Below, one piece after another: positions 19,590-50,657 of a stretch of DNA of 50,657 nt; within the stretch, counting starts at the first letter, position 1, and every line of letters begins with the position of its first letter. Made by a program: the position numbers and the translations under genes. The stretch is taken from NCBI RefSeq assembly GCF_031195445.1, contig NZ_CP133482.1, forward strand, positions 1 through 50,657, given 5' to 3'. Source of the DNA: Acuticoccus sp. MNP-M23. GTDB taxonomy: Bacteria; Pseudomonadota; Alphaproteobacteria; Rhizobiales; Amorphaceae. Under the pieces are notes generated by a model. The model made no database searches. It had not been told where the DNA came from and was given only the letters and a program-made list of their open reading frames with translations.

Positions 19590-20977
19590 CCGATCGTCCA
19601 AATATCACTGGTCTCTCAAGGCGTCAGTTGCTGGGAGCCGGCGCCGCTGCTGGCGCTCTCGTCAGCACATCGGCATGGTCGCGCACGGCCAACATGAGTT
19701 TGCCCGATGCACCGGTCATGGAGAGTCCTCTGACGCAGCCGCCGCAGGCACCGAGCGGAGGCTTGCCTTACAATCCTGTCTGTACGCTCAACAGCTGGTC
19801 CCTGCCGTTCAGGATGAATGGGAACGTGAAGGAATTCCACCTCGTCGCCGAGCCCGTGGAAAGAGAGATGGCCGACGGCACAATCGCGCATCTATGGGGC
19901 TACAATGGTCAGTCACCGGGGCCGACGATCGAAGCGGTGGAGGGTGAACGGGTGCGCATTTTCGTCACCAACCGCCTGCCTGAACACACTTCCGTCCACT
20001 GGCACGGCGTGATCCTGCCCTGCGGCATGGATGGCGTGACCGGCCTCACCCAGCCTGGCATCCCGGCGGGAAAGACCTTCGTCTACGAGTTCGACCTGAC
20101 GAAGTCCGGCACGCACATGTACCACCCGCACGGCGATGAGATGGTGCAGATGGCAATGGGCATGATGGGCTTTTTCGTGATCCACCCAAAAGACCCGGAC
20201 TTCATGCGGGTCGATCGGGACTACGTGTTCCTGCTCCAGGCCTACGACATCGATCCCGGTTCCTACATGCCGCGGGTGATGGAGATGACTGACTTCAACC
20301 TGTGGGCCATCAACAGTCGCATCTTCCCCGGCGTCGATCCGCTCGTCGCGGCCAAGGGAGACCGCGTCCGGGTTCGCGTCGGCAACCTCACCATGACGAA
20401 CCATCCGATTCACATGCATGGCTACCACTTCGAAGTGACAGGCACGGACGGCGGCTGGGTTCGTCCCGAGGCACGCTGGCCGGAGGTCACCATCGACATC
20501 CCCGTCGGTGGGATGCGCGCCTACGAGTTCGATGCCATCCACGAGGGCGACTGGGCACTCCACTGCCACAAGTCGCACCACACCATGAACGCCATGGGCC
20601 ACGACGTGCCCACCTTCATCGGCGCCGACAAGTCGGATATCGCCCGCAAGATCCGCCTGGTCCAGCCAGAGTACATGCCGATGGGCACCGATGGCATGGC
20701 CGACATGGCCGAGATGGCGATGCCCATCCCTGACAATACCGAGCCGATGATGGGCGGCTGGGGGCCGTTCGGCTCGGTCGAGATGGGCGGTATGTTCACG
20801 GTGATGAAGGTCCGCGAGGGCCTGGCCGCGGACGACTATTCGGACCCCGGTTGGTTCGATCACCCCCCCGGCACCGTTGCCTACGAATGGACCGGTGCCC
20901 TTCCGGAGGTCGCCTTCACGGAGGACGCCAACACGGTTCCGCCGCAGCACGCCGGCTCTCCCCGGCGCGTCGACTAA
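19586..20977 (+). CDS. Multicopper oxidase with Tat signal
   Basis: The 463-residue protein begins with a twin-arginine signal (SRRQLLGAGAAAGAL). Copper ligands are present in order: HWHG at 138-141, HMYHPHG at 177-183, HPIHMHG at 273-279 and HCHKSHHTMNAM at 327-338. Together these supply the type 1 and trinuclear copper sites. A Met-rich tail (MADMAEMAMP) is typical of copper-resistance oxidases. It would be folded in the cytosol, exported by Tat, and oxidise Cu(I) to Cu(II) in the periplasm. It is translationally coupled to the channel gene upstream, and a cupredoxin follows 24 bp downstream. Confidence 0.92.
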   Translation: MTDRPNITGLSRRQLLGAGAAAGALVSTSAWSRTANMSLPDAPVMESPLTQPPQAPSGGLPYNPVCTLNSWSLPFRMNGNVKEFHLVAEPVEREMADGTIAHLWGYNGQSPGPTIEAVEGERVRIFVTNRLPEHTSVHWHGVILPCGMDGVTGLTQPGIPAGKTFVYEFDLTKSGTHMYHPHGDEMVQMAMGMMGFFVIHPKDPDFMRVDRDYVFLLQAYDIDPGSYMPRVMEMTDFNLWAINSRIFPGVDPLVAAKGDRVRVRVGNLTMTNHPIHMHGYHFEVTGTDGGWVRPEARWPEVTIDIPVGGMRAYEFDAIHEGDWALHCHKSHHTMNAMGHDVPTFIGADKSDIARKIRLVQPEYMPMGTDGMADMAEMAMPIPDNTEPMMGGWGPFGSVEMGGMFTVMKVREGLAADDYSDPGWFDHPPGTVAYEWTGALPEVAFTEDANTVPPQHAGSPRRVD

Positions 20978-24141: not shown

Positions 24142-26475
<2,334 letters not shown>

Positions 26476-28691: not shown

Positions 28692-31025
28692 ATGGACCAC
28701 GATCATCACCACCCGCAGTCAACCGATCCAGAAAACGCCGAAACGGTGAAAGACCCGGTTTGCGGCATGACCGTCGCGGTGGGGCCTGACACGCGCCACG
28801 CTGAGTTCCAGGACAAGACCTTTCATTTCTGCTCCGAGAAGTGCCAGACCAAATTCAAGGACGATCCCTGGTTCTACGCATCGGGTCACGCCGCCGGGCA
28901 CAAGAAGGCGGCCCCCGCGAACGTCCAGTACACCTGCCCGATGCACCCCGAAATCATCCGCGATGCGCCCGGCTCCTGTCCGATCTGCGGCATGGCACTG
29001 GAGCCGATGGTGCCCTCGGCCGAGCCCAGCCAAGAGCTGACCGATTTCACGCGCCGGATGTGGATCTCTGCAGCGGCCGCGGTGCCGCTGATGGTGTTGA
29101 CGATGGGCGAGCTGGTTGGCCTGCCGGCGCGCGATTGGCTGGGGCACCGGACGGCCAGCTATCTGGAGTTCGTGCTGGCAACGCCGATCGTGCTGTGGGC
29201 GGCCCTGCCGTTCTTCAAGCGCGGCTGGGACTCGATCGTGAACCGTTCGCCGAACATGTGGACGCTGGTCAGTCTCGGCGTGGCAGCCGCCTACCTCTAT
29301 TCGATCGTGGCAACCTTCCTGCCGGGCCTTTTCCCCGAGGTTTACCGGATGGGCCATGGGGTCGGCACCTATTTCGAGGCCGCCGTCGTGATCGTGACGC
29401 TGGTGTTTGTCGGCCAGGTGCTCGAACTGCGCGCGCGAGAGCGGACCGGAGACGCAATCCGCGCCCTCCTGGACCTCGCCCCCAAGACCGCACGCAGGAT
29501 CCTGCCGGGCGGCACGGAATACGATGCGCCGCTGGAAAACATCATGGTGGGCGACCGGCTCCGGGTGCGCCCCGGCGACGCGGTCCCGGTGGACGGTGTC
29601 GTGATCGAGGGACGGTCTTCGCTGGATGAAAGCATGCTGACCGGCGAGTCCATGCCTGTCGAAAAGGGGCCGGGCGATGTGGTGACCGGCGCCACCATCA
29701 ACAAGAACGGCAGTCTCGTGATGGAGGCGGGCAAGGTCGGCGCCGATACCGTCCTGGCGCAGATCGTGGACATGGTGTCGAACGCGCGGCGGTCGCGCGC
29801 ACCGATCCAGGGGCTTGCCGACCGGGTGTCGGCGGTGTTCGTGCCGACCGTGGTTGGGGTGGCGATCTTCGCGTTCGCGGTGTGGCTGATCGTCGGGCCC
29901 GAACCTGCGCTGGTCTTCGCGATCGCTGCGGCGGTGTCCGTGCTGATCATCGCCTGCCCCTGCGCGCTGGGCCTTGCCACACCGATCTCGATCACCACGG
30001 CGGCAGGGCGCGGTGCGCAGGCTGGCGTTCTGATCAAGGATGCCGAGGCGCTGGAACGGATGGCCGCTGTCGACACGCTGATCGTGGACAAGACCGGCAC
30101 GCTGACCATGGGGAAACCGAAGCTGACCGATACCGTGGCCCTTGGCGATCGTGCCGCGGCCGAAATCCTGTCGCTGGCCGCTGCGCTCGAGCGCGGCTCG
30201 GAACATCCGCTTGCCGAGGCGATCGTTGAAGGCGCCGAGGCCGCGGGCGCTGCCCGGCAAGACGCTGCGGATTTCGAGGCTGTCACCGGCAAGGGCGTAC
30301 GCGGCCGGATCAACGGGCGTTCCGTCGCACTCGGCAACACCGCGATGATGCAGGATCTGGGGCTAGGCACGACCGAGGCCGAAGCAAGGGCAGACGTCCT
30401 GCGCGGCGAGGGCAAGACGGCAATGTTCGTCGCGGTCGACGGGACGCTCGTCGGCATCGTGGCGGTGGCCGATCCGATCAAGGAGGGGGCAGCGCAGGCG
30501 ATCAGGGAACTTCACGGCCAGGGGCTGCGCGTCATCATGGCAACGGGCGACAACGAGCGCACCGCAAAGGCAGTCGCAGGAGAACTGGGGATCGACGAGG
30601 TGCGCGCCGGGGTCCTTCCGGAGGACAAGAAAACGCTGATCGACCAGTTGCGCGATAGCGGCCACCGGATCGCCATGGCAGGGGACGGCGTGAACGACGC
30701 ACCGGCTCTCGCGGCGGCCGACGTCGGCATTGCAATGGGCACCGGGGCCGATGTTGCCATGGAAAGCGCCGGCATCACGCTTCTGGGCGGCGATCTGATG
30801 GGCATCGTGCGGGCGCGAAAGCTGGCGCGCGCCACGCTGCGCAACATCAGGCAGAACCTGTTCTTCGCCTTCGCCTACAATGCGGTCGGCGTGCCCATCG
30901 CGGCCGGGCTGCTCTATCCCTTCACGGGGCTTTTGCTCTCCCCGATGATTGCCGCGGCCGCGATGAGCCTGTCCTCGGTCTCGGTCATTTCCAACGCGCT
31001 TCGGCTGCGCCGCGTTGATCTGTAG
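28692..31025 (+). CDS. copA: Copper-translocating P1B-type ATPase, copy 2
   Basis: This 777-residue protein is the same length and domain order as the one at 24142: YHS domain, heavy-metal-binding domain ([12 protein letters not shown]), CPC transport motif, DKTGTLT and GDGVNDAP, with the P1B-1 last-helix motifs intact. Differences are scattered substitutions such as [16 protein letters not shown] in place of [16 protein letters not shown]. All catalytic residues are kept, so both copies should be active Cu(I) exporters. Duplicate pumps may raise export capacity or differ in expression. It lies after CopD and shares a downstream chaperone type with copy 1. Confidence 0.94.
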
Positions 31026-37424: not shown

Positions 37425-37452
37425 GGTGCCTATAATTGACATTATACGCGGT
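37425..37452 (+). other. dif-like recombination site (XerC/D-type arms)
   Basis: GGTGCCTATAA, a six-base core TTGACA and TTATACGCGGT lie 37 bp before the tyrosine recombinase gene. Within it TATAAT and ATTATA form an inverted repeat. The layout of two 11-bp arms around six bases, and the ATAA...TTAT ends of the arms, match the dif sites used by XerC and XerD. It is likely the site on which the adjacent recombinase, or host Xer proteins, resolve plasmid dimers. Confidence 0.6.
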
Positions 37453-37489
37453 CAGGGCATGCATCGGAGCGGCCACAGGGGTTTTGCCA

Positions 37490-38476
37490 ATGCCGATACC
37501 AACGAACCCGTCAGGAAGCGCCCTCACCACCCTCGGCGATCCGGCCGATCGGGTGCGCGAGGCGCTCGCCAACCTGCGCCGGCACGAAGCCCTCGCAAGC
37601 GGCGCCTATTCGCAAAACACCTTGAAGGCATGGGAGGCCGACAGCCGCCTGTGGTCGGCCTGGTGTTCTGAAACCGGCACGACCCCGCTTCCCGCATCGC
37701 CCGATGCCATTGCCGCATGGATCGAGGCCATGGCAGCCAGAGGCAACAAGGTGGCCTCCATCCGCCGCCGCATCGCCACCCTGGCAAGGATGCACCGCGC
37801 AGCCGGGCTCCCCGACCCGACCAAGACCGACACCGTAACGCTGCGGCTGAAAGCCGTCGCCCGCCGCATCGGGTCGCGCCAGCGACAGGCAAAGCCCATC
37901 ACCTATTACGATGCACGGCGCATCGTTACGCATCTTCCAGCCAGCACCATCGGTCTGCGCGATGCCGCCCTCATCCTCATCGCACGGGACATGCTGGCAC
38001 GGATCTCCGAGGTGTCCGCCCTCAACGTCGGTGACGTGACCCGCCAGAGCGATGGCAGCGGCCTCGCCTTCGTCGCATCGTCCAAGACCGATACGCTGGG
38101 CGAAGGGGTCATCGTCTATGTGAGCCCCGCCGCGGTGGCCGCGGCCCAGGCGTGGACGGCCGCAGCCGGGATTGCCGAAGGCGCCCTGTTCCGATGTGTC
38201 GATCGCCACGGCAATATCGGGGGCCGCCTGGCGCCGCGCGCCATCGCTGCCGCCTTCAAGCGCATGGCGGCCCGGGCCGGTATGGATGTTGGCATCAGCG
38301 GCCACTCGGCCCGCGTCGGCGCCGCCGCAGACCTTGCCGAGTTCGGCGCATCCCTCCCCGAAGTCATGACCGCCGGCCGATGGAAATCGCCCGTTACCGC
38401 CGGACGCTATTGCGCCGGACAGGAAGCCCGACGCGGTGCCGTCGCACGATTCCATGCCGCAAAAGGGGAAGGGTGA
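37490..38476 (+). CDS. Tyrosine recombinase (integrase/Xer-like)
   Basis: The 328-residue protein has an N-terminal SAM-like core-binding domain (YSQNTLKAWEADSRLWSAWC) and a C-terminal catalytic domain. The active-site residues are visible: Arg171 in ARISE, Lys199 in SSKTD, His272 and Arg275 in GHSAR, Trp298 in AGRW and Tyr307 in GRYCAG. It cuts and rejoins DNA through a Tyr-phosphate link. Being on a plasmid core with a dif-like site at 37425, it most likely resolves dimers. ATG 37490 follows CAGGGG; an earlier start at 37436 would place coding sequence over part of the site. Confidence 0.9.
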   Translation: MPIPTNPSGSALTTLGDPADRVREALANLRRHEALASGAYSQNTLKAWEADSRLWSAWCSETGTTPLPASPDAIAAWIEAMAARGNKVASIRRRIATLARMHRAAGLPDPTKTDTVTLRLKAVARRIGSRQRQAKPITYYDARRIVTHLPASTIGLRDAALILIARDMLARISEVSALNVGDVTRQSDGSGLAFVASSKTDTLGEGVIVYVSPAAVAAAQAWTAAAGIAEGALFRCVDRHGNIGGRLAPRAIAAAFKRMAARAGMDVGISGHSARVGAAADLAEFGASLPEVMTAGRWKSPVTAGRYCAGQEARRGAVARFHAAKGEG

Positions 38477-38978: not shown

Positions 38979-39602
38979 TTAGCGCATCAGACGCTCGACG
39001 AAACCGGTAAGGTGCGCGTCGCAAGCCTTCTCGTATCTCTCAAGCCGAGCGAGGTGTCGTTCGAACGTGTGCCCGTGCATGCCACGCGGCTTGGGGACGA
39101 AGTCACCGATCGGCGTGGGCGCACCGAGCCGACGGCGCAGCTTGTGTGCCTGATCGATGGCTCGATCGTACGGTGCCTGCTGCTGGGATCGATAGCGTGC
39201 ATTCCACGCCTGCCTCGCTGCGAAGTAGTGGCCCCCTGGCAGTAGATAGAGCTTGCGGCAGCGCCTCCCTGTTGCCGGACAGCGAAAATGCCATCGCCAC
39301 CCGCCGAAGCGTTGGGGGCATCCCTCCAGCTCGATCCTCTGGTGAATGTCGTGGCGGTTGTCGCGGTGATCGGTCAGACGGTAGCGAAGTTCGAACGTGC
39401 CAGTCCCGGTTTCTGCGTCCAGGTGTGCAGTATAGTCGGCAGATGCTCGCTCCTCGCGGGTCTGCACGGCGCGCCAATGCAACGATCCGCGCCAGCCCCC
39501 GGGACGCACGAGTCCATCGCGGACCAACTTGTCGAGGTCGAGTGGCAAGCCGTTCTCCAGCGTTGCCCTTAAAACCGGCCGCCCGCCTCCAGAACCTCTC
39601 AT
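38979..39602 (-). CDS. Conserved hypothetical protein downstream of the HUH gene
   Basis: The 207-residue protein starts at ATG 39602 with GAGAAG upstream; a TTG at 39638 would overlap the HUH gene. It reads LPLDLDKLVRDGLVRPGGW, then a beta-rich core (GTFELRYRLTDHRDNRHDIHQRIEL). RWHFRCPATGRRCRKLYLLPGG resembles a Cys-containing zinc-binding or nucleic-acid-binding loop. The end is Arg- and Tyr-rich (YRSQQQAPYDRAIDQAHKLRRRLG). Similar proteins are seen on alphaproteobacterial mobile DNA. It lies 25 bp after the HUH gene on the same strand and probably acts with it. Confidence 0.75.
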   Translation of the reverse strand: MRGSGGGRPVLRATLENGLPLDLDKLVRDGLVRPGGWRGSLHWRAVQTREERASADYTAHLDAETGTGTFELRYRLTDHRDNRHDIHQRIELEGCPQRFGGWRWHFRCPATGRRCRKLYLLPGGHYFAARQAWNARYRSQQQAPYDRAIDQAHKLRRRLGAPTPIGDFVPKPRGMHGHTFERHLARLERYEKACDAHLTGFVERLMR

Positions 39603-39627
39603 GCCGGTCTTCTCGAAGTTTCCGAAA

Positions 39628-40491
39628 TCATGTGGCAACGCGGCGTTTTATTCGGTTTCGTGGTTTGTTTTTGCCAAGTTCCTGCACGACCCGAAGCGCT
39701 TCCTGCGTCACGGTTCGGGAGAACCGACAGCGGCCGGCTTCGACATTGGCTCCGTGGGCACGGCTGACACCGATCAGGCCGTAGAACTTCTCCTGCGTGA
39801 GACGGTGTTCCGTGCGGACGGACTTCAGCTTTGCGCGGAGGGCGGTTGGAGAAACCCGCCCGCCAATCTGTCGCGATGCGTCAGATGGCGCCCGCCGTGG
39901 AACACAGAGCGGTTCCCCACGAAGAAGGGCAGAGGCCTTTTTCGTGAACAAAACGCGGGGTCCCGGGATGTAGTCCCCTTTTTCGTAGAAATAGCCTTGG
40001 CCAGAAGGACGCGCCCAGCGCTCTTTCGTGACGTACCTGACGGCGTTTTCGTCGGTTCGTCGAACATGCAGCTCGGGCGGGTTCTGCCGCTTCTCAATCA
40101 GGTCGACGCAGTGGTGCGGTACGTGGACCAGAACATGGGCGTGAAGATCCTTCGAGTTCCGTTTCTGTTCGTAAACAGTGGCAGCAATGACTGGAACTCC
40201 GCGTCTTTTCAAAGTTTGGTAGAGTGTTCGGGTGACATTGTTGATGTACCTCTTGCCCTCTGCCCCGCAGAGGTAGCCCGGTACGCGGATGGTGAGCATC
40301 CAATTCAGAGGTATGTTCTTTTCCTGCGCAATCGCATCGAGCTGTTCAATGCCCCTCACGTCCTCAATGTTGAGGTGATGGGACCCTACCGGGCCTCGTC
40401 GAACAACTGAAGCAGGTTCATTGAACATACGAGCAGCGTAGCACTGAACGCATAGAGTACGGGTGCAGTCGTGGACGCCATCCACGAGCAA
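39628..40491 (-). CDS. HUH-endonuclease replication-type protein with C-terminal helix-turn-helix
   Basis: The 287-residue protein shows all three rolling-circle Rep motifs: a beta strand WMLTIRVPG at 64-72 (motif I), DLHAHVLVHVP with His117 and His119 (the HUH metal site, motif II), and VRYVTKERW with the likely catalytic Tyr153 and Lys156 (YxxK, motif III). Residues 216-275 form an XRE-like helix-turn-helix (LKSVRTEHRLTQEKFYGLIGVSRAHG), an unusual fusion for a Rep. It would nick one strand at an origin and join to it through Tyr. The TTG start at 40491 has a strong GGAGGG. It lies next to a theta-type origin, so its role is unclear: a second replicon, a mobilisation enzyme or a satellite remnant. 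Confidence 0.75.
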   Translation of the reverse strand: MLVDGVHDCTRTLCVQCYAARMFNEPASVVRRGPVGSHHLNIEDVRGIEQLDAIAQEKNIPLNWMLTIRVPGYLCGAEGKRYINNVTRTLYQTLKRRGVPVIAATVYEQKRNSKDLHAHVLVHVPHHCVDLIEKRQNPPELHVRRTDENAVRYVTKERWARPSGQGYFYEKGDYIPGPRVLFTKKASALLRGEPLCVPRRAPSDASRQIGGRVSPTALRAKLKSVRTEHRLTQEKFYGLIGVSRAHGANVEAGRCRFSRTVTQEALRVVQELGKNKPRNRIKRRVAT

Positions 40492-40668
40492 TAAACCCTC
40501 CAGAGCTGCGGTGGAGTTTTTGTTCTGGAGTGTTTGTCTGGGTGTGATCAGATTTCAGGGAGTGGCCAAAGCCGTGCAGCTACTGTGTTAAATGGGTGTT
40601 AGATATAGTGTTACGCTTAGAAAAACCGACTTAAGGTGCTGTATGCAAAGGGAAATTTTTCGAGCCTG

Positions 40669-40846
40669 GTGGGTAAATACACGTTTCTCGGTGTGCAAAT
40701 ACACGTGGAATGGTGTGTAAAAGCACGTTTCTCCTCGTTAGGTGTGTGATAACACGTTTCCTGCCAAATGGTGGGTGATAGCACGTTCATGAGGAGAAGG
40801 TGGGTGAAAGCACGTTTGGAGAGTGCCAGTGGGTGATAGCACGGTG
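40669..40846 (+). other. Origin iterons, seven copies
   Basis: Seven direct repeats of an 18-bp motif, consensus GTGKGTGATARCACGTTT, begin at 40669, 40691, 40713, 40742, 40771, 40800 and 40829. Spacing is 22, 22, then 29, 29, 29, 29 bases. They lie just before and into the start of the initiator gene, as expected for a RepA-bound plasmid origin. The AT-rich stretch at 40590-40625 could be the opening region. Confidence 0.9.
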
Positions 40847-41887
40847 GAACGGGCGCCTCTCCTCCCTGACCGAATGAGCCAGGGCGACTTTTTTGTTTGC
40901 GATATCTTCGATGCAGCGCCAAAGGCAGACATGGCTGCGATGGAGCACCCGGTGTTCTCCATCTCCACCAAGCCTGACCGGCGCATCAGGCGCTACGAGA
41001 ACGGTGACAAGTTCATCGAGATCACCCCTTCGGTGAAGGGGGTTGCCACGGTCCATGACCGCGACATTCTCATCTTCTGCATCAGCCAAGTGATTGCCGC
41101 CTATAACGAAGGGCGCCCGATCGAGCAAAGAGTGCGCTTCAAGGCTCGCGATTTTCTGGCCGCCACCAACCGCGGCCTCGACGGTCGCGGTTATGAGCAG
41201 TTCGTTGCTGCCCTGGAACGGCTGAGAGGCACCACCATCACCACCAACATCGTCACGGGCGGTGTGGAGCAGACGCGCATCTTCGGCCTCGTGGAGAGCG
41301 CCGACATCGTGCGCGAGGGACGTGACGGGCGCATGCAGGATATCGAGGTGCGCCTGTCGGACTGGGTGTTCAACGCCATCAAGGAACGCGAGGTCCTCAC
41401 CCTTCACCGCAACTATTTCCGCCTGCGCAAGCCACTGGAACGCCGTCTCTACGAAATTGCCCGCAAGCATTGCGGTCAGGCGTCGGAGTGGCGGATCGGT
41501 CTTCCCAAGCTGCGCCTCAAGTGCGGCTCGGCCTCCACTGACAAGGAGTTCCGCCGCCTGGTGACGAAGATCACCGACGAGGACGCGACCCACGACCACA
41601 TCCCCGACTATCGCCTCACCTTCGACGACAAGAAGGATCAGCTCGTCGTCACCAACCGCAACACGATGAAGCGCATCGATGCTTATCCCGAGTGGATCAA
41701 GGCGATCCATTTCGACGGCGACACCTACGACGAGGCACGCGAGGCGGCTCCCGGCTGGGACCCCTATTTCATCGAACAGGAATGGCGCGACTGGCTGGCA
41801 AACTCGGCCAAGCCCCCGCCCCGCAAGCCGGAGCTCGCCTTCATCCGCTTCTGCGCGACCTTCTACGAACGACGCGGTGCCCCATGA
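40844..41887 (+). CDS. repA: Plasmid replication initiator protein A (RPA family)
   Basis: The protein matches the RPA initiators of alphaproteobacterial plasmids: LLPDRMSQGDFFVCDIFDAAPKADMAAMEHPVFS, then KFIEITPSVKGVATVHDRDILIFC, WRIGLPKLRLKCGS and a basic winged-helix-like C-terminal half. It binds the iterons and starts theta replication. The start is uncertain. GTG 40844 gives VERAPLLPDR, which fits homologues; GTG 40823 lies further into an iteron; ATG 40874 would lose LLPDR. Since the last iteron overlaps the start, RepA probably represses its own expression. About 347 residues. Confidence 0.88.
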   Translation: MERAPLLPDRMSQGDFFVCDIFDAAPKADMAAMEHPVFSISTKPDRRIRRYENGDKFIEITPSVKGVATVHDRDILIFCISQVIAAYNEGRPIEQRVRFKARDFLAATNRGLDGRGYEQFVAALERLRGTTITTNIVTGGVEQTRIFGLVESADIVREGRDGRMQDIEVRLSDWVFNAIKEREVLTLHRNYFRLRKPLERRLYEIARKHCGQASEWRIGLPKLRLKCGSASTDKEFRRLVTKITDEDATHDHIPDYRLTFDDKKDQLVVTNRNTMKRIDAYPEWIKAIHFDGDTYDEAREAAPGWDPYFIEQEWRDWLANSAKPPPRKPELAFIRFCATFYERRGAP

Positions 41888-41914: not shown

Positions 41915-42087
41915 ACCGGATAAATAGACTCACCAGATTATCATGGAGACCGGGTTTTCAATCTAACCGGAAATATCGCCTCCAATAAATGAAAGGCAGA
42001 AGCGGGCCATTCATTCATCAGTTGCCGGATAGTCGCCGATTACCGGGTCAGGCGATTTATCCGGTTATACAATCAACCGGATAAATC
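41915..42087. repeat. Candidate partition site with ACCGGATAAAT repeats
   Basis: ACCGGATAAAT occurs at 41915-41925 and 42076-42086, with its inverse ATTTATCCGGT at 42055-42065 and degenerate relatives (ACCGGAAATA, GCCGGATAG, ACCGGGT) between. The last two form a perfect 13-bp inverted repeat, 42054-42066 and 42075-42087, with an 8-base spacer. Similar motifs occur on the other side of the par genes at 43112-43153. This is the layout expected for a centromere-like site. Confidence 0.6.
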
Positions 42088-42381
42088 AGGCTTGTGGACG
42101 CCGCGCGCCACATAAAGCGCAAACGCTTCCTCCAGGATCACGCCCTGGGTGACGCCGCGGCGGCGGGCCTCGTCGGCGATCGCATCCGCAATGTGGGGGA
42201 GCACCTTGGCGTGGACCTGACCGGTGCGGGGGGAGGGGCGGCGCCCCCTGCGGCCAGGCTCGCGGGCGATGAAGCCGTGCCGCTCGCCCGCCTCGTCGGC
42301 CTGCCCCAGGGTGGCTTTGTCGGCGGGCTTGGCGCGCGACTTCAGCTGGCCAAGGTCGATGGAAAAGGCTTTCTCGCTCAT
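42073..42381 (-). CDS. Small partition-type DNA-binding partner (ribbon-helix-helix-like)
   Basis: The 102-residue protein has a disordered basic N-terminal half (GFIAREPGRRGRRPSPRTGQ). The C-terminal VHAKVLPHIADAIADEARRRGVTQGVILEEAFALYV has the strand plus two helices of a ribbon-helix-helix domain. Its ATG overlaps the ParA stop (ATGA), the usual arrangement for a ParA with a small centromere-binding partner such as ParG. Its stop codon lies inside the 13-bp inverted repeat. Confidence 0.75.
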   Translation of the reverse strand: MSEKAFSIDLGQLKSRAKPADKATLGQADEAGERHGFIAREPGRRGRRPSPRTGQVHAKVLPHIADAIADEARRRGVTQGVILEEAFALYVARGVHKPDLSG

Positions 42382-43046
42382 GCCGCCTCCCGTTTCTCGG
42401 TCAGGCGAGCGTAGATCGCGCTTGCGAAGTCAGATGCGTTTTCGCGCGCCGCCTTCATGTTGCCCTGAGCGGGGAGGGTGGCAAGGTCGCCGCCATATTC
42501 GAACAGCGCGGAAAAGGCCGCCCGCTCCATCAGCGCCGGCGTGATGACATCGATCCCCTGTGCGCGCAGCGAGGCTTCGATGCCCGAGTGCTGCTTGGAG
42601 CGGATCGCCCGCGTCATGGTGAATACCACCGCGTGGCGGATCGACCGGCCGAGCGTCTCCTCCTCCTCTGCCACCAGCTGAAGCGCGCGGGCGCCGATGG
42701 TGGCGTCGAGCGTTGTGGCCCGCATCGGCGTCAGCACCAGGTCCGCCTGGCTGATGGCACGGCTGACGAGACGCGAGGCGACCCCCTCCAGGTCGACGAT
42801 GACGACCGATCCGTCGGCATCGAGCGCCCGGATGGTGCGCACGATGTTCTGCTCGGTGATGGCGTTGTGAAGCGTGATGCGTGCCGGGACCGGCCCGCGC
42901 TCGGCCCACAGGGTCAGCGATCCGTTGGGATCGCCGTCCAGCATGGCGACATCGGCGCCGGCTCTTGCAAGCTCTGTCCCCAGGAGGACGGCCGTGGTCG
43001 ATTTCCCCGCGCCGCCTTTCGGCGAGGCGATGACGATGGTGGGCAT
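42378..43046 (-). CDS. parA: ParA-family partition ATPase
   Basis: The 222-residue protein starts MPTIVIASPKGGAGKSTTA, a deviant Walker A with the signature Lys. It continues with MLDGDPNGSLTLWAE and SVVIVDLEGVASRLVSRAI, the Walker B region. It lacks the N-terminal DNA-binding domain of type Ia, so it is a type Ib ParA that moves plasmid copies apart with its small partner. ATG 43046 has GGGAGAAGG upstream. The ParA-partner pair runs towards the convergent repA gene, with the repeat cluster between. Confidence 0.92.
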   Translation of the reverse strand: MPTIVIASPKGGAGKSTTAVLLGTELARAGADVAMLDGDPNGSLTLWAERGPVPARITLHNAITEQNIVRTIRALDADGSVVIVDLEGVASRLVSRAISQADLVLTPMRATTLDATIGARALQLVAEEEETLGRSIRHAVVFTMTRAIRSKQHSGIEASLRAQGIDVITPALMERAAFSALFEYGGDLATLPAQGNMKAARENASDFASAIYARLTEKREAA

Positions 43047-43111
43047 TGCGCCTTCTCCCGTGTTTCGGCGAAGGCGATGATCGCGCAAACCTGCGAACGA
43101 TCAGTAAACTT

Positions 43112-43156: not shown

Positions 43157-43576
43157 TCAGGCTGACCACGGATCGATCAGCGGCACGCCGGTCGCGGCAA
43201 AGTCGGCAACGTTGCGCGTGACCACGGTCATCTTGTGAACCATTGCCGTGGCCGCGATCAGCGCGTCGCGTTCGGCACGTGGATCGGGCACGTGAAGGCG
43301 CGCGCATTGCAGGGCCACCGGGGCATCGATGGGAAGCGTGCGCGAGGCGAACGCCGGCACGACATGATCGTCCATCCATCGGCGCAGCCGTGCGCCCTGC
43401 GCCGCATCGCGCCGTGCCACCCGCAAGACGCCGATTTCGACCTCCATCAAGGTGAGGGCGGAGATGTAGAACACTGCTGCATCCTGCGCAGCACACCAGG
43501 CCGTCACGTTTGTGTCGGCCCTTCCGTCTCCGGCCTTGCGCAATTCGGAGACAACATTGGTGTCGAGAAGGAACAT
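43157..43576 (-). CDS. vapC: PIN-domain toxin (VapC/FitB-like)
   Basis: The 139-residue protein has the PIN-domain active-site layout: FLLDTNVVSELRK with the first Asp, SALTLMEVEIGV with the central Glu, ERDALIAATAMVH with a second Asp, and VTRNVADF at the end. PIN toxins cut RNA, often initiator tRNA or rRNA. Its ATG overlaps the antitoxin stop by one base (TGATG), so the pair is coupled. On a plasmid it likely provides post-segregational killing. Confidence 0.9.
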   Translation of the reverse strand: MFLLDTNVVSELRKAGDGRADTNVTAWCAAQDAAVFYISALTLMEVEIGVLRVARRDAAQGARLRRWMDDHVVPAFASRTLPIDAPVALQCARLHVPDPRAERDALIAATAMVHKMTVVTRNVADFAATGVPLIDPWSA

Positions 43577-43830
43577 CAGTCGAGCTCGGCGGGCCGGCTC
43601 ACAAGGGTCACTTGACCGGGCGCGAAATCGATCTCGGCGAGGCCGGGCATTGCGAGCGCCTCGACAAGGCTCTGCCGCCCGCCGGCAAGGCGCTGATAAT
43701 CTTCGATCGTCATCAGGACATGGGCCGGCCGGCCGCGATCGGTGATGAACACCGGCCCCTCGCGGGCGGCCTTCTTGGCGCGCCCGACGTCCTGGTTGAG
43801 CTCGCGGCTTGTCAGGGTCGTGATCGACAT
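43576..43830 (-). CDS. Phd/YefM-family antitoxin
   Basis: The 84-residue protein matches Phd/YefM antitoxins: TLTSRELNQDVGRAKKAAREGPVFITDRGRPAHVLMTIEDYQRL is the DNA-binding fold, and the remaining tail should cover the toxin. It is encoded just before the toxin. GAGGTGAG lies upstream of ATG 43830. A dyad at 43845-43860 is the likely operator. Confidence 0.9.
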   Translation of the reverse strand: MSITTLTSRELNQDVGRAKKAAREGPVFITDRGRPAHVLMTIEDYQRLAGGRQSLVEALAMPGLAEIDFAPGQVTLVSRPAELD

Positions 43831-43860: not shown

Positions 43861-44243
43861 GTATAGAGGGGCGGGGGCAAATGCCAGTGCCTTCTTCGAA
43901 GACTTCTGACATTGCCTCGACCGCAGAGAGCGTACTCTCATGTCGCGTGCAGCCCAGTCACACTCGGCCGGACGGGGCTTGGTGAGGTGTCACTTGATGA
44001 GATCGCCAACCGATAAAGGTGAGGGGCCGTTTAGACCAGCTGGCTTGCCCTCAAATTATCGACGGTTTTTGAGACAACATGCTATATCGCAACGATCTGA
44101 TCTGCATTCTCCGACCTCTCTTAGGCAGCAGAAATATCCCCGCGAAGAGCTTCCATGGCAGCAAGCTCAGAAGACATCCCGCAGGAGAGTAAATGCGCCA
44201 CGGCTGCTGCGAACCCAGCCGGTCTGAGCTAGACTGTGCGCGC
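43861..44243. other. Non-coding region before the SIR2 gene
   Basis: No gene is supported in these 383 bases. A frame at 43940-44227 lacks a ribosome binding site and family features. The region should hold the SIR2 promoter; no clear -35/-10 pair is claimed. Confidence 0.45.
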
Positions 44244-47200
44244 ATGCGTTTCATCGCCAATGGCCCTTCGATCCCCGATGATCTCCTGACCGCGCGCGAT
44301 GCAGGTGACGTCATCTTTTTCTGCGGCGCAGGCGTCTCCCGTCACTACGCCGGTCTGCCCGATTTTCTCAAACTCGGCGGCGACGTCATCGATCTCCTCG
44401 GCGCCAGCAATAAGAGCGTCGCTCGCAAGCTGTTCGGTCGGATCAAGGATCTCGACCCCATCGACGGCGTTGGGGGGCTTATCGCCACCGATCGCATTTT
44501 TAGCCTCCTCGAACGCGAATTCGAGCAACGCGATGTCCAGAACGCTGTTGCGCGCGCGATAAAGCCTGCCAAGGAGGGCCCCGAACTCAGTGCGCACCGG
44601 ACCCTAATCGACCTATCCCGAGGCCGCGACGGCACGGTTAGGCTGGTCACCACCAATTTCGACCTGTTGTTCGAAGCGGCTGCTCCCGACGTGAATTGCT
44701 TCGGACCGCCTCGCCTGCCTGACCCTCGCAGCGCCGGCTTCGGCGGGATCGTGCATCTCCATGGGCGCGTCGACGCGGAGTACTCGCAGCCTTCCGATGA
44801 AGAATTCATCATCTCCAGCGCCGACTTCGGCCGCGCCTATTTGTCCGACGGCTGGGCGACCAGCTTCATGCAGTCGCTGCTCGCGCGCTTTCAGGTTGTT
44901 TTTGTCGGCTACGGCGCCGACGATCCACCGGTCCAATATCTGCTAGAAGCGCTGAATCTACATGCCGGCAACCGCAGCCGACTGTTCGCATTCCAAGCGG
45001 GCCACAACGCCGACGATGCCGCACTTTGGGAGCATCGCGGCGTTCGAGCGATCTCCTTCGACAACAGTGAGGGCTATGATCCGCTGTGGGATAGCCTCGA
45101 AGCTTGGGCGGACCGCGCGCGGGACGTCGATGGCTGGTACGCTCGGCTGCTCGATACGGCAACCGCCGGGCCCGCATCGTTAGACCCGCATGTGCGCGGC
45201 CAGATCGCCCATGTGCTCTCTACCCGCCAAGGCGCCCGGCGCGCTAGCAAATCCGAGACACCGCTTCCGGCATCGTGGCTGCTCGCGCTCGATCCGCGCC
45301 AGCGCTTCGAGAAACCGAAGTTGGTCGAACCATACGGGCAATCAGTCGATCGGCTCGATCCCTATGAGAACTTGTCGCTGGACTTCGACACACCCCCGCA
45401 GCCGATCGACGAGGATGACGCCTTTCACGATCGCACGGTGCCCGAAGAGTCATGGAACGCCTTCGCGCAGGCCAACTACGATCAGGAGGATACTCAAGAG
45501 CCCGGCAGTGGGGATTTTTGCGGCGAAGGGTCGGCCCTCGTCCGGCCGCTCTCCACCCGCCTCAGCCATTTAGGAATCTGGTTCCACCGCATCGCTCATC
45601 AGCCAGTCGCTTTATGGTGGGCGGCCGCGCGCGGGCCGCTCCATCCCGCCGTTGTGGATATGATCGAGAGCTCGCTCAGGCAGGATCCTGATCGCTGGTC
45701 CGACGACATCCGCGTCGGTTGGCAATTACTCATCGCGAGCTGGAAAGACCATCGCGAAAATCCTGACGACGCCCTTTTCAAAATCAGCGATATCGCAGCG
45801 CGCGACGGTTGGTCTGAAGCGCTGATGCGCAAATATGCCGCCTTATTTCGACCGCGCCTGACGGTCGATCGCAAATTTGATACTTCGCATCCCCTGTCAT
45901 TGACTGCCGAAAATCGTCCCAATCCAGTTGTCTCCTACGACGTCGACTACCCTCACCCCTACGAACTGCTGAATATCCCCGAAGAGCACCTTGCATATGC
46001 GGTATCGCGCTTCCGCGAAAATCTCGACCTCGCTCGCTCGCTCGAAGCGGAGATCCCCGGCGCTCACTATTTCTATATCCAGACCACGCGGCCGGACGAT
46101 GGTGCCCCTCCGATCGCCTACGACAGCTATGGCGTAACCGGACCGGTCGCGCTGTTCCTCCAGCTTATGGAGCGGCTGGTGGTGATTGCGCCCGATCGCG
46201 CCCGCGGTGAGATCGCTCAATGGCGGGCCGATGACCATGAAATTTTCGGCCGCCTCCGCATCTGGGCGGCCAGCAAATCAATCATCTCCGCTAGACACGC
46301 AGCGGACATCCTGCTCGGCTTCCCCGACAGAATTTTCTGGGGCTCTAACCACCAGCGCGACCTTTTGTATGCGATCCGCGACCGCTGGCCCGACTTCTCG
46401 AAGGAAGAGCGGGAGCGGTTCGAACAGCGCCTCCGCACCACAAGCTTTCCCTGGCTGGGCACCACACTAGTCGGCAAGGCACGCGCTGAGGCTGAGGCGC
46501 ACTCCCGCCTCGACCGGATTTACTGGCTGGCAAGCCAAGGGCTCGAATTCTCGTTCGACGTGGAGGCTGAGATAGCCGCGCTTCGTCCGATCGCCGAAGG
46601 CTGGTCCGAGCATTCCGGCGAGGAAGCGGCGGCATCAAATGCTCCGGTTGTGAGGCGGATCGGCACCGATGCACAGCTACGCGGCCTCGACCAAGTACCA
46701 ATCGGTGAAATTCTCGAGCGCGCCACACACTTAGGCCAGTTGGACCTCGTCGAGTATGTCGAGCGCCACCCGTTCGGCGGGCTTTCGGAGGATAAACCCG
46801 CCCGCGCGCTCGCGGCCCTCACAAATGCGGCGCGTAGAGGCGACGTACCTGTCTCCTTCTGGTCCACCTTCCTCCACGCTGAGAAGCGAAAGACCGATTC
46901 CGCGCGGCTCGTCCGCGCGATCGGCGGCCGCCTTTCTTCACTACCGCCTGCTGACCTCAGCAGCATTGCTTATCCCGTCGCCGAATGGCTGCAGGGGCTG
47001 GACCAGCGCCTGTTCGGTGAGTTTGCGTCGGCGCTTGACCATCTGTGGAACCCACTCATTGCCGCGCTGCCGCTGCGCCATGACGACCGCACACACCGGA
47101 TCGATAGTAGCTGGGCAAATGATGCGTTGAACGCGCCCGTTGGAAAACTCGCCGACGTCCTCAGGAAGGATCCGTCGACAAGCGGGCTCAAGCTGGGCCA

Positions 47201-48050
47201 GGGTTTCCCGGAACACTGGAAGCGCCGGTACGAGCAGCTGCTCGCGCTACCAGGCGACATGAGACGCCATGCTCTCGTCATGCTCGGGTCCCAGATCCAG
47301 TGGTTGTTCGCGATCGAACCCAACTGGACCACCGCCCATCTGCTTGCGGTGGCGGACGATGTAGGCGAGGACGGAGATGCATTGTGGGACGGCATCCTCT
47401 GGGCTGCGCATACTCCAAGCCGAGCGATGTACGAGCGCCTGAAGCCAGGCCTGCTCACTCGCGCGATGTCACCGCTTCGACGACGCGCCGAAGCGAGTGT
47501 AATCGCCCGATTCCTTCTAGTCGGGTGGTGCGGTGATCCTAATGCTGATCCGTCCGAGCAGCTCGTAACGAGCGCCGAGCTGCGCGAGATCCTCGTTGAG
47601 GGCGACGACGACCTGCGCGCGCAGATCCTGTGGCAGTTAGAACGTTGGTCTGCGGACCCAGAAGGCGAGTGGCGCGCGCGCCTCATTCCATTCCTCACCG
47701 ACGTCTGGCCGATTCACCGCGCCTTGCGGACGCCAGAGATTTCGAGGCGCCTTATTCGCCTCGCTCTGGCAAGTGGCGACCTCTTCCCGGAAGTCGCGCA
47801 GGCCATACTCCCGCGACTAGTTCCGGTGCGGGGCGGCATGCTGCCGGGGTTCATGCGCCGCTCGGAGGCCGAGAAGGATCCGGCCCAGGTCTATCCCGCT
47901 GCCACGCTTGACGTTCTCTGGGCGGTTCTAGGCGAAGACTCGACGCTCTGGCCATACAAGACCGAAGAGGTGCTGGATCTCCTCGCTAACGCTCCCGAGA
48001 CCCACGCCGATACTCGTTTGTCGGAATTGCGTCGCCGGCGCACTGGTTGA
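44244..48050 (+). CDS. Large SIR2-family protein, likely anti-phage NADase (DUF4020-like C-terminus)
   Basis: The 1,268-residue protein starts with a SIR2 fold: VIFFCGAGVSRHYAGLPDF with GAGVS at 29-33, VTTNFDLLFE with Asn138, and IVHLHG with the catalytic-type His171 or 173. A HAGNRSRLFAF segment follows. The remaining thousand residues are helical and show a C-terminal block (RRAEASVIARFLLVGWCG, ISRRLIRLALASGDLFPEVAQAILPRL) like DUF4020, which occurs at the end of SIR2 defence proteins. Such proteins sense phage and deplete NAD, killing the infected cell. ATG 44244 lacks a clear ribosome binding site; it is taken because the SIR2 domain starts there. It may be a single-gene defence system, next to a toxin-antitoxin pair. 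Confidence 0.82.
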   Translation: MRFIANGPSIPDDLLTARDAGDVIFFCGAGVSRHYAGLPDFLKLGGDVIDLLGASNKSVARKLFGRIKDLDPIDGVGGLIATDRIFSLLEREFEQRDVQNAVARAIKPAKEGPELSAHRTLIDLSRGRDGTVRLVTTNFDLLFEAAAPDVNCFGPPRLPDPRSAGFGGIVHLHGRVDAEYSQPSDEEFIISSADFGRAYLSDGWATSFMQSLLARFQVVFVGYGADDPPVQYLLEALNLHAGNRSRLFAFQAGHNADDAALWEHRGVRAISFDNSEGYDPLWDSLEAWADRARDVDGWYARLLDTATAGPASLDPHVRGQIAHVLSTRQGARRASKSETPLPASWLLALDPRQRFEKPKLVEPYGQSVDRLDPYENLSLDFDTPPQPIDEDDAFHDRTVPEESWNAFAQANYDQEDTQEPGSGDFCGEGSALVRPLSTRLSHLGIWFHRIAHQPVALWWAAARGPLHPAVVDMIESSLRQDPDRWSDDIRVGWQLLIASWKDHRENPDDALFKISDIAARDGWSEALMRKYAALFRPRLTVDRKFDTSHPLSLTAENRPNPVVSYDVDYPHPYELLNIPEEHLAYAVSRFRENLDLARSLEAEIPGAHYFYIQTTRPDDGAPPIAYDSYGVTGPVALFLQLMERLVVIAPDRARGEIAQWRADDHEIFGRLRIWAASKSIISARHAADILLGFPDRIFWGSNHQRDLLYAIRDRWPDFSKEERERFEQRLRTTSFPWLGTTLVGKARAEAEAHSRLDRIYWLASQGLEFSFDVEAEIAALRPIAEGWSEHSGEEAAASNAPVVRRIGTDAQLRGLDQVPIGEILERATHLGQLDLVEYVERHPFGGLSEDKPARALAALTNAARRGDVPVSFWSTFLHAEKRKTDSARLVRAIGGRLSSLPPADLSSIAYPVAEWLQGLDQRLFGEFASALDHLWNPLIAALPLRHDDRTHRIDSSWANDALNAPVGKLADVLRKDPSTSGLKLGQGFPEHWKRRYEQLLALPGDMRRHALVMLGSQIQWLFAIEPNWTTAHLLAVADDVGEDGDALWDGILWAAHTPSRAMYERLKPGLLTRAMSPLRRRAEASVIARFLLVGWCGDPNADPSEQLVTSAELREILVEGDDDLRAQILWQLERWSADPEGEWRARLIPFLTDVWPIHRALRTPEISRRLIRLALASGDLFPEVAQAILPRLVPVRGGMLPGFMRRSEAEKDPAQVYPAATLDVLWAVLGEDSTLWPYKTEEVLDLLANAPETHADTRLSELRRRRTG

Positions 48051-48521: not shown

Positions 48522-50657
48522 TCAGAAGTTGATGCTGAGCCTCGCGCTGCCCGTCACGGCGCCATAGTGCTTGCTGAACGTTGCATCGACCCCGGCTTCC
48601 AGCGTGTAGCGGTCCTTCAAGGTGGTGGAGATTGCCGCACCCAGCGTGGCAAAGACGTCGTCGGCCTTGTCCGCAACCGTGAATGACGGTCCGATGCCGC
48701 CGGCTCCGGCGAGCCTCACCTCGCGCTCGCGCTGCGTGCCGCCGGCGATGAACAGCGCCCCGCCCCGCGCCGAGGCTTCGAATACGGCACCCCACATACC
48801 GAAATGCGCGTTCGCCTCGACCTCCGGGTTCAGCGTGAAATAGGTGGCGTTGAACGGATCAACGTCGAGCCCCCAGGCACCGGCGCCGCGCTCGCTGAAT
48901 GCTGCCTGGTGCTGGTACTCGGCGCCGACCGTCACCGACGGCGTGACGCTGAAAACGCCCGCCGCGCCAAAAGTGTGGGCGAGCCTTGCGTGGGTCGCCA
49001 GCCACCCGTTCATCGGGTCGGCACCCACCGTGCGCGGTCCGCTGGGGGTCAAGACGGTGCGCTCGAAGTCAATGTTGCCGAGCCCGCCGGAGACCTTTGC
49101 CCTCAGCTCGGTGGCGCCGAATGCCCGCGCCACCGTGGCGCCCACATGGAAGCGGTTCGCGTCCCCGTCGTAGCGGCTGGCCTCGATGCCGGAGCGTTCG
49201 TAACTCACCGCACCGCCTGCGGACCAGCCATTGCCGAAGCCGCGCTCGGCCCCCGCGAAGATACCGAATGCCCGCTCGTCATAGGGGCTGACGAGCCCGC
49301 CTTCGTCACGGTCGGCGGCGACACCGTAGAGCTTGGCCATGGCGCAGCTCTCGCCGTTTGTGATCACCGCGGTCTTGCCCGCCGCCACGTCGGGGCAGAG
49401 CCCGAGCTCGGAGGAAAAGCGTCGCGAGGCGTTCAAAGCGGCATCGTCCGCCGCAAAGAGCTCGCCCGGCGCATAGGTGTCGTAGATCGAGACGAGTTCA
49501 CCGACCGTCTCCACCTGCAGCAGATACAGCACCAGATCCTGCAAAAAATCGGCATTCTGGAAGCTCCGCCGTGCGCCGATCAGCCTGTCTACATGCTCCC
49601 CGAAGGCGGTATGGTTGGCATCGATGCGGCCAAGCACACTTCGCGGGATCCCCGAACGCCACGGCCCGTCCCATGGGGTGTAGTCGACCTTGTAGCCGAG
49701 CGCGACCGACTGGGAGAACGGGCTCAGGATCGAATAATCCACCGTCGCGGTGTCTGCCACGGTGAGCGCGCTGGCATCGACACCGAGATTGGCCTCGATG
49801 ATCCGGAAGGACCCGGTTTCGCCGTCCCGCGGCGTACCGGACACGGGCGTGGGCGTGACGCTGCCTGCGAACGTTGCGGTGGTGACAGTGTCGAGTATGA
49901 GCAGACTGCTGTTGCGCGGAAAGTCGAGGTCGAGCGCGTAGGTGCCTGTTGCCGTCTGCACGAAGCTGCCTGTGGTCAACGAAGCGCGGGGCGCATCGTC
50001 GGTCCCGACCAGAAGCGTGCCCGCATTGACGAAACTGCCCCCGCTGGTGCCGAGATCGTTGGCCGTCCCGACAAGCCGGTAGGTGCCGCCAACCTCGTTG
50101 TTGAAGGTGGTGAACGGCGCGTTGATGCCACCCACGATGGTGCCGGTGTTGTTGACGGTGAGACCGGCCGTGCCATCGCTGCGGATCGCGAACGCCGCGG
50201 CGTTGCCCTGCTCTATGGTCCCCGCATTGTTGATGATATTGGCGCGGCCGCCCCGCAGGCCGATGGTTTCGTAACCGCTGGTGCCGGTGGACATCGTGGC
50301 GCCGCTGGCCACATCGATGGTGATGATGCCGTTGCCGGCATTGACCGGCGCAGCGCCGATCGCGGCCGCCGCGCGCCCTGGGGCGACGCTCTCCACGGCG
50401 GAGGCGCTCTGGACGAGGACCGCACGCCCCCTGCTGCCGCTAGCTGCAATGTCGGCGTTGACCTTGAGCGTGACGTCGCCGCTGGTGTCCCCGCTCGAAG
50501 CACCGGACGCGGACTGGGCAAATACTCCGTGCGCGCCCGCACCTGAGACGTCGATGGCGCCGTTGACCGTAACGTTCACGTCGCCGCCGTTGCCGGATGC
50601 ACCGGCGCTCCCCACAAAATTGTCGAAATTTGCCGGGGCGAGGACGCCGGAGACCGC
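48522..50657 (-). CDS. Autotransporter C-terminal part: last passenger repeat, linker and beta-barrel (runs off the right edge)
   Basis: This minus-strand frame is open from the window edge to a TGA at 48522, giving 711 residues. The first residues from the edge (AVSGVLAPANFDNF, then GNGGDVNVTVNG) are another passenger repeat. A non-glycine beta-rich spacer with NNAGTI and NTGTI strands follows, then a linker. The last 270 or so residues show alternating strands typical of the Pfam Autotransporter domain. The protein ends in SARLSINF, with the terminal Phe expected of an outer-membrane beta-signal. A GTG at 50615 could be taken for a start, but there is no signal peptide, so it is more likely internal. 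Joining to the 1-5700 segment gives one 2,611-residue type Va autotransporter. Confidence 0.88.
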   Translation of the reverse strand, partial: AVSGVLAPANFDNFVGSAGASGNGGDVNVTVNGAIDVSGAGAHGVFAQSASGASSGDTSGDVTLKVNADIAASGSRGRAVLVQSASAVESVAPGRAAAAIGAAPVNAGNGIITIDVASGATMSTGTSGYETIGLRGGRANIINNAGTIEQGNAAAFAIRSDGTAGLTVNNTGTIVGGINAPFTTFNNEVGGTYRLVGTANDLGTSGGSFVNAGTLLVGTDDAPRASLTTGSFVQTATGTYALDLDFPRNSSLLILDTVTTATFAGSVTPTPVSGTPRDGETGSFRIIEANLGVDASALTVADTATVDYSILSPFSQSVALGYKVDYTPWDGPWRSGIPRSVLGRIDANHTAFGEHVDRLIGARRSFQNADFLQDLVLYLLQVETVGELVSIYDTYAPGELFAADDAALNASRRFSSELGLCPDVAAGKTAVITNGESCAMAKLYGVAADRDEGGLVSPYDERAFGIFAGAERGFGNGWSAGGAVSYERSGIEASRYDGDANRFHVGATVARAFGATELRAKVSGGLGNIDFERTVLTPSGPRTVGADPMNGWLATHARLAHTFGAAGVFSVTPSVTVGAEYQHQAAFSERGAGAWGLDVDPFNATYFTLNPEVEANAHFGMWGAVFEASARGGALFIAGGTQREREVRLAGAGGIGPSFTVADKADDVFATLGAAISTTLKDRYTLEAGVDATFSKHYGAVTGSARLSINF

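Follow-up and report, generated by a model that had tools for sequence, protein, structure and literature searches.

The gene pair at positions 38979-40491 is best read as an altered member of a recurrent, little-studied mobile-DNA module. It lies in the window, i.e. the whole stretch of DNA that was analysed (50,657 bases, the entire contig C3 of 7), where it forms a two-gene operon that is divergent from RepA and adjoins a seven-iteron origin. The first gene codes for a HUH Rep-like protein, as judged from its sequence probably a nickase, and the second for a conserved partner protein. Three changes mark the window module: the HUH protein is fused to an XRE-type domain, an AlpA-like gene was not found in the window, and the partner has lost cysteines. 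Our preferred reading, which may well be correct but is put forward tentatively, is that HUH protein and partner constitute the replicase-plus-accessory core of an AlpA-type integrative or plasmid mobile module that resides on a theta plasmid, with nicking as a predicted activity. The features of the region are:

39628..40491, minus strand: HUH Rep-like protein with C-terminal XRE-type helix-turn-helix (HTH), 287 aa, assigned by motifs, Pfam and profile
40135..40143, minus strand: HxH motif H117-A-H119 (LHAHVLVHVP), with HAHVL at residue 117
40024..40035, minus strand: motif 3, Y153-V-T-K156, with the putative catalytic Tyr, assigned by form and spacing
39688..39840, minus strand: XRE-type HTH, residues 218-268 (Pfam HTH_31, E 4e-4, under cut-off)
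40493..40535, minus strand: dyad AAACnCTCCAGA-N19-TCTGGAGnGTTT, 11/12 paired, overlapping the Shine-Dalgarno sequence of the HUH gene
38979..39602, minus strand: partner, conserved 207-aa protein beginning with ATG, separated from the HUH stop codon by 25 bp
40669..40843, plus strand: seven iterons, GTGNG...CACG, with spacings of 22, 22, 29, 29, 29 and 29
40823..41887, plus strand: RepA, RPA-type theta initiator (PF10134, E 5.9e-83), divergent from the HUH gene
42073..43088, minus strand: plasmid partition genes, RHH protein (42073-42381, weak match) and ParA (42378-43088)
37436..38476, plus strand: XerC/D-like tyrosine recombinase adjoining the module, a candidate module member

The HUH gene starts with TTG directly after a GGAGGG Shine-Dalgarno-like sequence, GTG at 40485 being an alternative start. 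The initial annotation had ascribed all three rolling-circle (RC) Rep motifs to its product, and we indeed located WMLT beginning at residue 64, H117/H119, and YVTK at residue 153. H117 and H119 are invariant across 10 sequences aligned with MAFFT, i.e. the two histidines of an H-U-H motif are present. For the third motif the assignment is less straightforward as MAFFT places F182/K185 rather than Y153 in the motif-3 column of the family, and the choice of Y153 is therefore our own judgement. The distance from Y153 to the next G-x-I/V-x-G-x-R-like stretch is 20 residues in the window copy, whose stretch DYIPGPR was added to the search pattern by hand, as compared to 21-32 residues in 10 of 14 relatives and 42 in two, the pattern not finding both motifs in L055 and L153. 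The linker between HxH and Tyr comprises 34 residues in the window copy versus 47-69 in 13 of the 14 relatives.

Family membership was assessed with a hidden Markov model (HMM) of 13 relatives from which the window sequence had been left out. This HMM matched the HUH open reading frame (ORF) with an E-value of 2e-8, alone among the 243 ORFs of at least 70 aa in the window (next-best ORF: E 1.1). The match covers only residues 38-127, from motif 1 to the HUH motif, so that the Tyr region lies outside of it. The Pfam family PF23343 (REP_ORF2-G2P) matched residues 78-156 with an E-value of 0.005 and 17.5 bits, under the gathering cut-off of 27.8 bits. This cut-off was passed by the HUH proteins of Sulfitobacter dubius (L155, 33.7 bits; 53% identical to P0006) and Psychrobacter (L008, 32.1 bits), and five other HUH relatives matched under it or not at all. 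An AlphaFold2 model based on 8 sequences had a mean pLDDT of 38.6 and a pTM of 0.35; its order of helices and strands at residues 45-134 would suit an HUH fold, and the placement of H117/H119 on a strand comes from this low-confidence model. Single-sequence searches with the window HUH protein gave no relative in plasmids, phages (E 1), genome contigs and viral contigs or in 9 other genomes of the genus and family; likewise, no relative was found for the L143 and L148 HUH proteins in viral contigs or for the HUH profile among PDB sequences. A nick site was not found. At the sequence level, the initially proposed arrangement of a HUH protein fused to an XRE-type domain, with a partner, beside a theta origin is supported.

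None of 10 HUH relatives scanned with Pfam had an HTH match, and the XRE fusion thus appears, so far, to be peculiar to the window copy. The dyad in front of the gene was equalled in quality by 1 of 300 shuffles of positions 40431-40660. Folded as RNA it would pair the Shine-Dalgarno sequence of the HUH gene (z -2.0, 8 of 200 shuffles being as stable), and it could be a candidate operator, a hairpin switch sequestering the Shine-Dalgarno sequence or a nick-site hairpin. These elements might also belong to a regulator of the resident replicon that binds DNA in the stretch separating its own gene from the iterons and tunes RepA or incompatibility, with no nicking involved; the XRE fusion, the divergent position across the iteron region and the dyad at the start codon would suit such a role. 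Two relatives on small plasmids, pRPA and pRm1132f, have H-x-N in place of H-x-H and reside beside another Rep, indicating that the family can drop a catalytic histidine and keeping a regulatory role conceivable. The window copy, however, retains both histidines and a Tyr motif, and the partner would be left unexplained, so that a purely regulatory function appears improbable.

The initial annotation had described the partner as a conserved protein 25 bp downstream, and this is confirmed by an HMM of 60 relatives, the window copy left out, which matched the window partner with an E-value of 1.5e-35. The family ranges from proteobacteria to Haloferax, Alicyclobacillus and Bacteroides and has five columns where Cys is present in 59 to 61 of the 61 sequences of the alignment, which we call "zinc-ribbon-like cysteines" (our own label). 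The Cys-containing loop initially ascribed to the window protein is only partly correct: of the five family cysteines it keeps C108 and has lost the other four. A fold model of the partner reached a pLDDT of 87.5 and had no match in the PDB at E-values up to 0.001; a methyltransferase, the best match, was rejected as homologue (E 0.01, TM 0.23). Searching PDB sequences yielded uS14 at an E-value of 0.74 as the only match, and Pfam scans of three partner copies gave Phage_TAC_11 for the window copy (E 0.16, under cut-off) and nothing for two relatives. A role in a defence system was considered and dropped, the pair having no PADLOC match (best E 0.058). Two further arrangements of partner genes were observed. 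The alphaproteobacterial genome G289 carries two of them in tandem (L023, 1501-2811), and a single ORF of Paracoccus yeei plasmid pLM20P5 (L018, 508-1293), recognised by the partner profile (2.5e-45) as well as by that of the HUH protein (9e-15), may be a deletion fusion of the two.

The loss of cysteines raises the question whether the module is a relic, i.e. a decaying remnant of an integrative element that does little now. The four missing family cysteines, the shortened HxH-to-Tyr linker, the AlpA-like gene not found in the window (profile search, ORFs of at least 45 aa, E up to 0.01) and a frame-split HUH gene in the related locus of genome G206 are in line with decay. On the other hand, both window ORFs are open and closely spaced, with HxH, a Tyr-x-x-K and the XRE domain kept, and partner copies from Methylobacterium, Microvirga, G176 and G351 show a similar cysteine loss, which thus looks old and tolerated. 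We consider it unlikely that the module is a relic.

The replicon next to the gene pair contains both an RPA initiator and iterons, in line with the iteron initiator noted in the initial annotation, and the resident plasmid copies itself by theta mode via these two elements. Several other genes lie in the window. Near the replicon, 44193-48050 (plus strand) encodes a SIR2-domain protein of 1285 aa with a PADLOC match to the defence protein Dsr1 (E 1.8e-83, strongest over residues 18-368), and 43157-43830 (minus strand) a toxin-antitoxin-like pair, PIN/VapC-like (43157-43576) and Phd/YefM-like (43576-43830), both named by eye. Two near-alike ORFs for heavy-metal P-type ATPases of 777 aa each (24142-26475 and 28692-31025, plus strand) and a multicopper-oxidase-like ORF (19586-20977), all named by eye, make up a duplicated metal-resistance region. 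An autotransporter-like ORF at 1-5200 and a GC-rich repetitive region at 48522-50615 (by eye) suggest that one large gene may span the contig ends of a circular plasmid.

A second nickase-type protein beside a theta initiator had been regarded as unexpected. This view was not supported: we examined the annotation of nine plasmids that clearly carry a HUH gene, and all nine encode another Rep, which in pRm1132f is recognised solely through a weak match to Rep_1; pLM20P5 was left out of this count and had no Rep within the 5.2 kb examined. In such a setting the HUH protein might be a mobilisation nickase, acting as relaxase of a relaxase-less plasmid by nicking an oriT near its own gene so that helper conjugation moves the plasmid. 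Relaxases of families PF03432 and PF03389 are encoded on contigs C1, C2, C5 and C7 of the genome and none on the window contig, and PLSDB calls five of the six P0006-type plasmids non-mobilizable. A precedent exists too, RC Rep proteins being described in PMC5714925 as acting as relaxases for plasmids without their own. However, the Pfam matches of the HUH protein (E up to 1) include no relaxase, on pRm1132f the HUH-like protein is already accompanied by a MOBV relaxase, and among the P0006-type plasmids there is one that is conjugative with MOBQ. Dedicated mobilisation is thus somewhat unlikely in our view, but as RC Rep proteins can double as relaxases, the copying and transfer readings overlap.

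The initial annotation had suggested surveying whether the two genes co-occur elsewhere, and they do. Partner homologues were found in 23 plasmid records. P0006-type HUH genes occur in six plasmid records, five of which also carry the partner, L143-type genes in five (two shared with the partner, already counted under the P0006-type) and L148-type genes in 18, none with the partner; all HUH-bearing plasmid records together, 5 of 25 also hold the partner. Among 385 alphaproteobacterial genomes the partner was present in 20, HUH profile A4 in nine and both in four (G000, G176, G206 and G351), as compared to 0.47 expected (P 0.0006; 0.005 without the own genome), where the window's sequence is the only A4 member from the 385 genomes and three of the nine A4-positive genomes match weakly (E 6e-4 to 0.01). 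With profile A5, 10 of the 385 genomes were positive, four of them with the partner (P 0.0009; 0.007 without the own genome); as A5 contains the proteins of G176, G351, G061 and G123, which match by construction, we base the co-occurrence figure on A4. The plasmid and genome counts indicate that the HUH-partner pair is real and recurrent, yet optional.

Pairs are found on Roseobacter-group and Paracoccus plasmids and on alphaproteobacterial chromosomal islands. HUH gene and partner are neighbours in G206, 1.6 and 2.7 kb apart in the two copies of G176 and 7.7 kb apart in G351; each of the four copies has both genes encoded on the same strand. A tyrosine integrase (by eye) and an AlpA-like HTH gene precede the HUH gene in each of these islands. 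In one G176 copy an ATPase gene between HUH and partner (L143, 5963-7192) matches PDC-S59, a candidate defence family (E 4.2e-25). As the G176 slot thus holds a PDC-S59-like ATPase and the G351 slot type I restriction-type genes (named by eye), the slot between HUH and partner may be a site for defence cargo.

To place the partner in a wider context we surveyed its loci. The best 80 of 171 loci were kept, by which the survey leans to A3-like copies, and an upstream ORF was chosen in 103 of 125 loci in total. Upstream classes rely on automatic ORF choice and BLAST clusters with Pfam scans of few representatives, and L001, L010 and L044, being duplicates or without partner, were removed before counting. 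The upstream gene codes for a HUH protein in 13 of the 103 loci, of which 10 fall into one cluster and the others are the window, L008 and L043; L005, L013, L070, L080, L084 and L085 represent one close lineage. The largest class (17/103) is an unnamed 270-aa protein, the one member scanned being without Pfam match. Six loci have a Toprim-DUF3987 cluster protein (one scanned) and six a protein of some 840 to 965 aa that is either annotated as RepB primase or resembles it weakly; one of two scanned members of the latter matched RepB_primase (E 0.0024, under cut-off). DnaB (L009, L012), Prim-Pol/PriCT (L077), ResIII helicases (L091, L125) and an ImpB polymerase (L026) were also found at this position. 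Judged by these gene neighbourhoods, the partner is not specific to HUH proteins and elsewhere follows primases, DnaB or helicases. Of the 125 partner loci, 34 have an AlpA-like HTH gene upstream in the same orientation, as do 28 of the 77 with at least 2.5 kb upstream, as opposed to none on the opposite strand; in the other 91 of the 125 loci, many with short sequence, none was found. The AlpA profile had 8 seeds, of which L007 is probably not AlpA, and four of these seeds (L005, L007, L016 and L018) are included in the count of 34. The sole downstream match, in L015, is upstream when read across the start of the circular record.

Based on these contexts, our preferred reading of a replicase-plus-accessory core takes the module order elsewhere to be integrase, AlpA-like HTH, replicase, cargo or nothing, and partner, with the HUH Rep-like nickase as replicase here. 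At the sequence level it builds on the motifs, the family membership and the recurrent co-occurrence with the partner and with another Rep or an integrase. Points against it are the low-confidence HUH model, the AlpA-like gene not found in the window and in 91 of 125 partner loci, the XerC/D-like type of the neighbouring recombinase, the small share of HUH-bearing plasmid records that hold the partner (5 of 25), the H-x-N relatives, the unnamed protein as largest upstream class and the MAFFT placement of motif 3. The XRE domain would bind DNA beside its own HUH gene, the dyad over the ribosome-binding site being a candidate site, and may replace the missing AlpA-like gene as regulator. The HUH protein would nick one strand via Tyr153, with a metal held by H117/H119, the nick would initiate strand-displacement synthesis, and the partner would serve as replication accessory, resulting in an additional, conditional route for copying or transfer alongside vegetative theta replication. 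A broader proposal is that theta plasmids and islands of Alphaproteobacteria share an undescribed conditional rolling-circle system made up of a HUH nickase, an AlpA-like or XRE regulator and a conserved partner acting as replication accessory for HUH replicases as well as for primases and helicases; we regard this as possible but doubtful. A second nickase may be present on plasmids that are typed as non-mobilizable theta replicons, and if it is active, their transfer is being underestimated. The partner family is often found behind unrelated replication enzymes, yet no PDB relative was found, which makes its function a testable question.

Finally, we compared the module with known systems. 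Among the literature matches listed we found no description of the HUH-partner pairing, which leaves the initial claim that no system with exactly this pairing had been described uncontradicted, although the partner also accompanies replicases other than HUH proteins. In PICMI satellites the core genes comprise int, alpA and a primase of the DUF3987 or DUF5906 type, according to PMC10803314. PICMI and P4-like satellites (int-alpA-primase) share the core of integrase, AlpA and replicase with the HUH islands of G176 and G351, as described in PMC10803314 and PMC8628076, but their replicase is a primase, whereas it is a HUH protein in these islands and in the window. P4-like elements are reported in PMC8628076 never to occur on plasmids, and the satellite layout includes AlpA, for which no counterpart was detected in the window. 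Sinorhizobium meliloti pRm1132f, a rolling-circle plasmid as cited in PMC10194956, carries a distant HUH relative with H-x-N; unlike the window it has a separate Rep_1-like gene (E 0.0014, under cut-off) and a MOBV relaxase, and no partner was found.

Further counterparts come from Psychrobacter and Roseobacter-group plasmids. Psychrobacter pA46P3 encodes an inovirus-type Gp2 protein (PF11726/PF23343) as HUH protein, with the partner 33 bp downstream and RepM, which we take to be a theta initiator, on the same plasmid; this HUH protein differs from that of the window in belonging to another branch (PF11726) and having no HTH match. Phaeobacter piscinae pP18_i and Sulfitobacter sp. OXR-159 unnamed06, both of the Roseobacter group, encode HUH Rep-like proteins annotated as hypothetical. 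Like the window they combine HxH, Tyr-x-x-K (in the window the putative motif 3), a downstream partner (there at 156-157 bp) and a second Rep on the plasmid. The HUH proteins of the Roseobacter-group plasmids are about 21-23% identical to the window protein and differ in that P0006 is without Pfam HTH match and pP18_i has a separate AlpA-like HTH gene, and their partners keep the cysteines, whereas the window partner keeps C108 only. The Sulfitobacter plasmid OXR-159 also shares the layout of the window: its RPA gene, ParA and a small gene of RHH size are encoded on the strand opposite to the HUH-partner pair.
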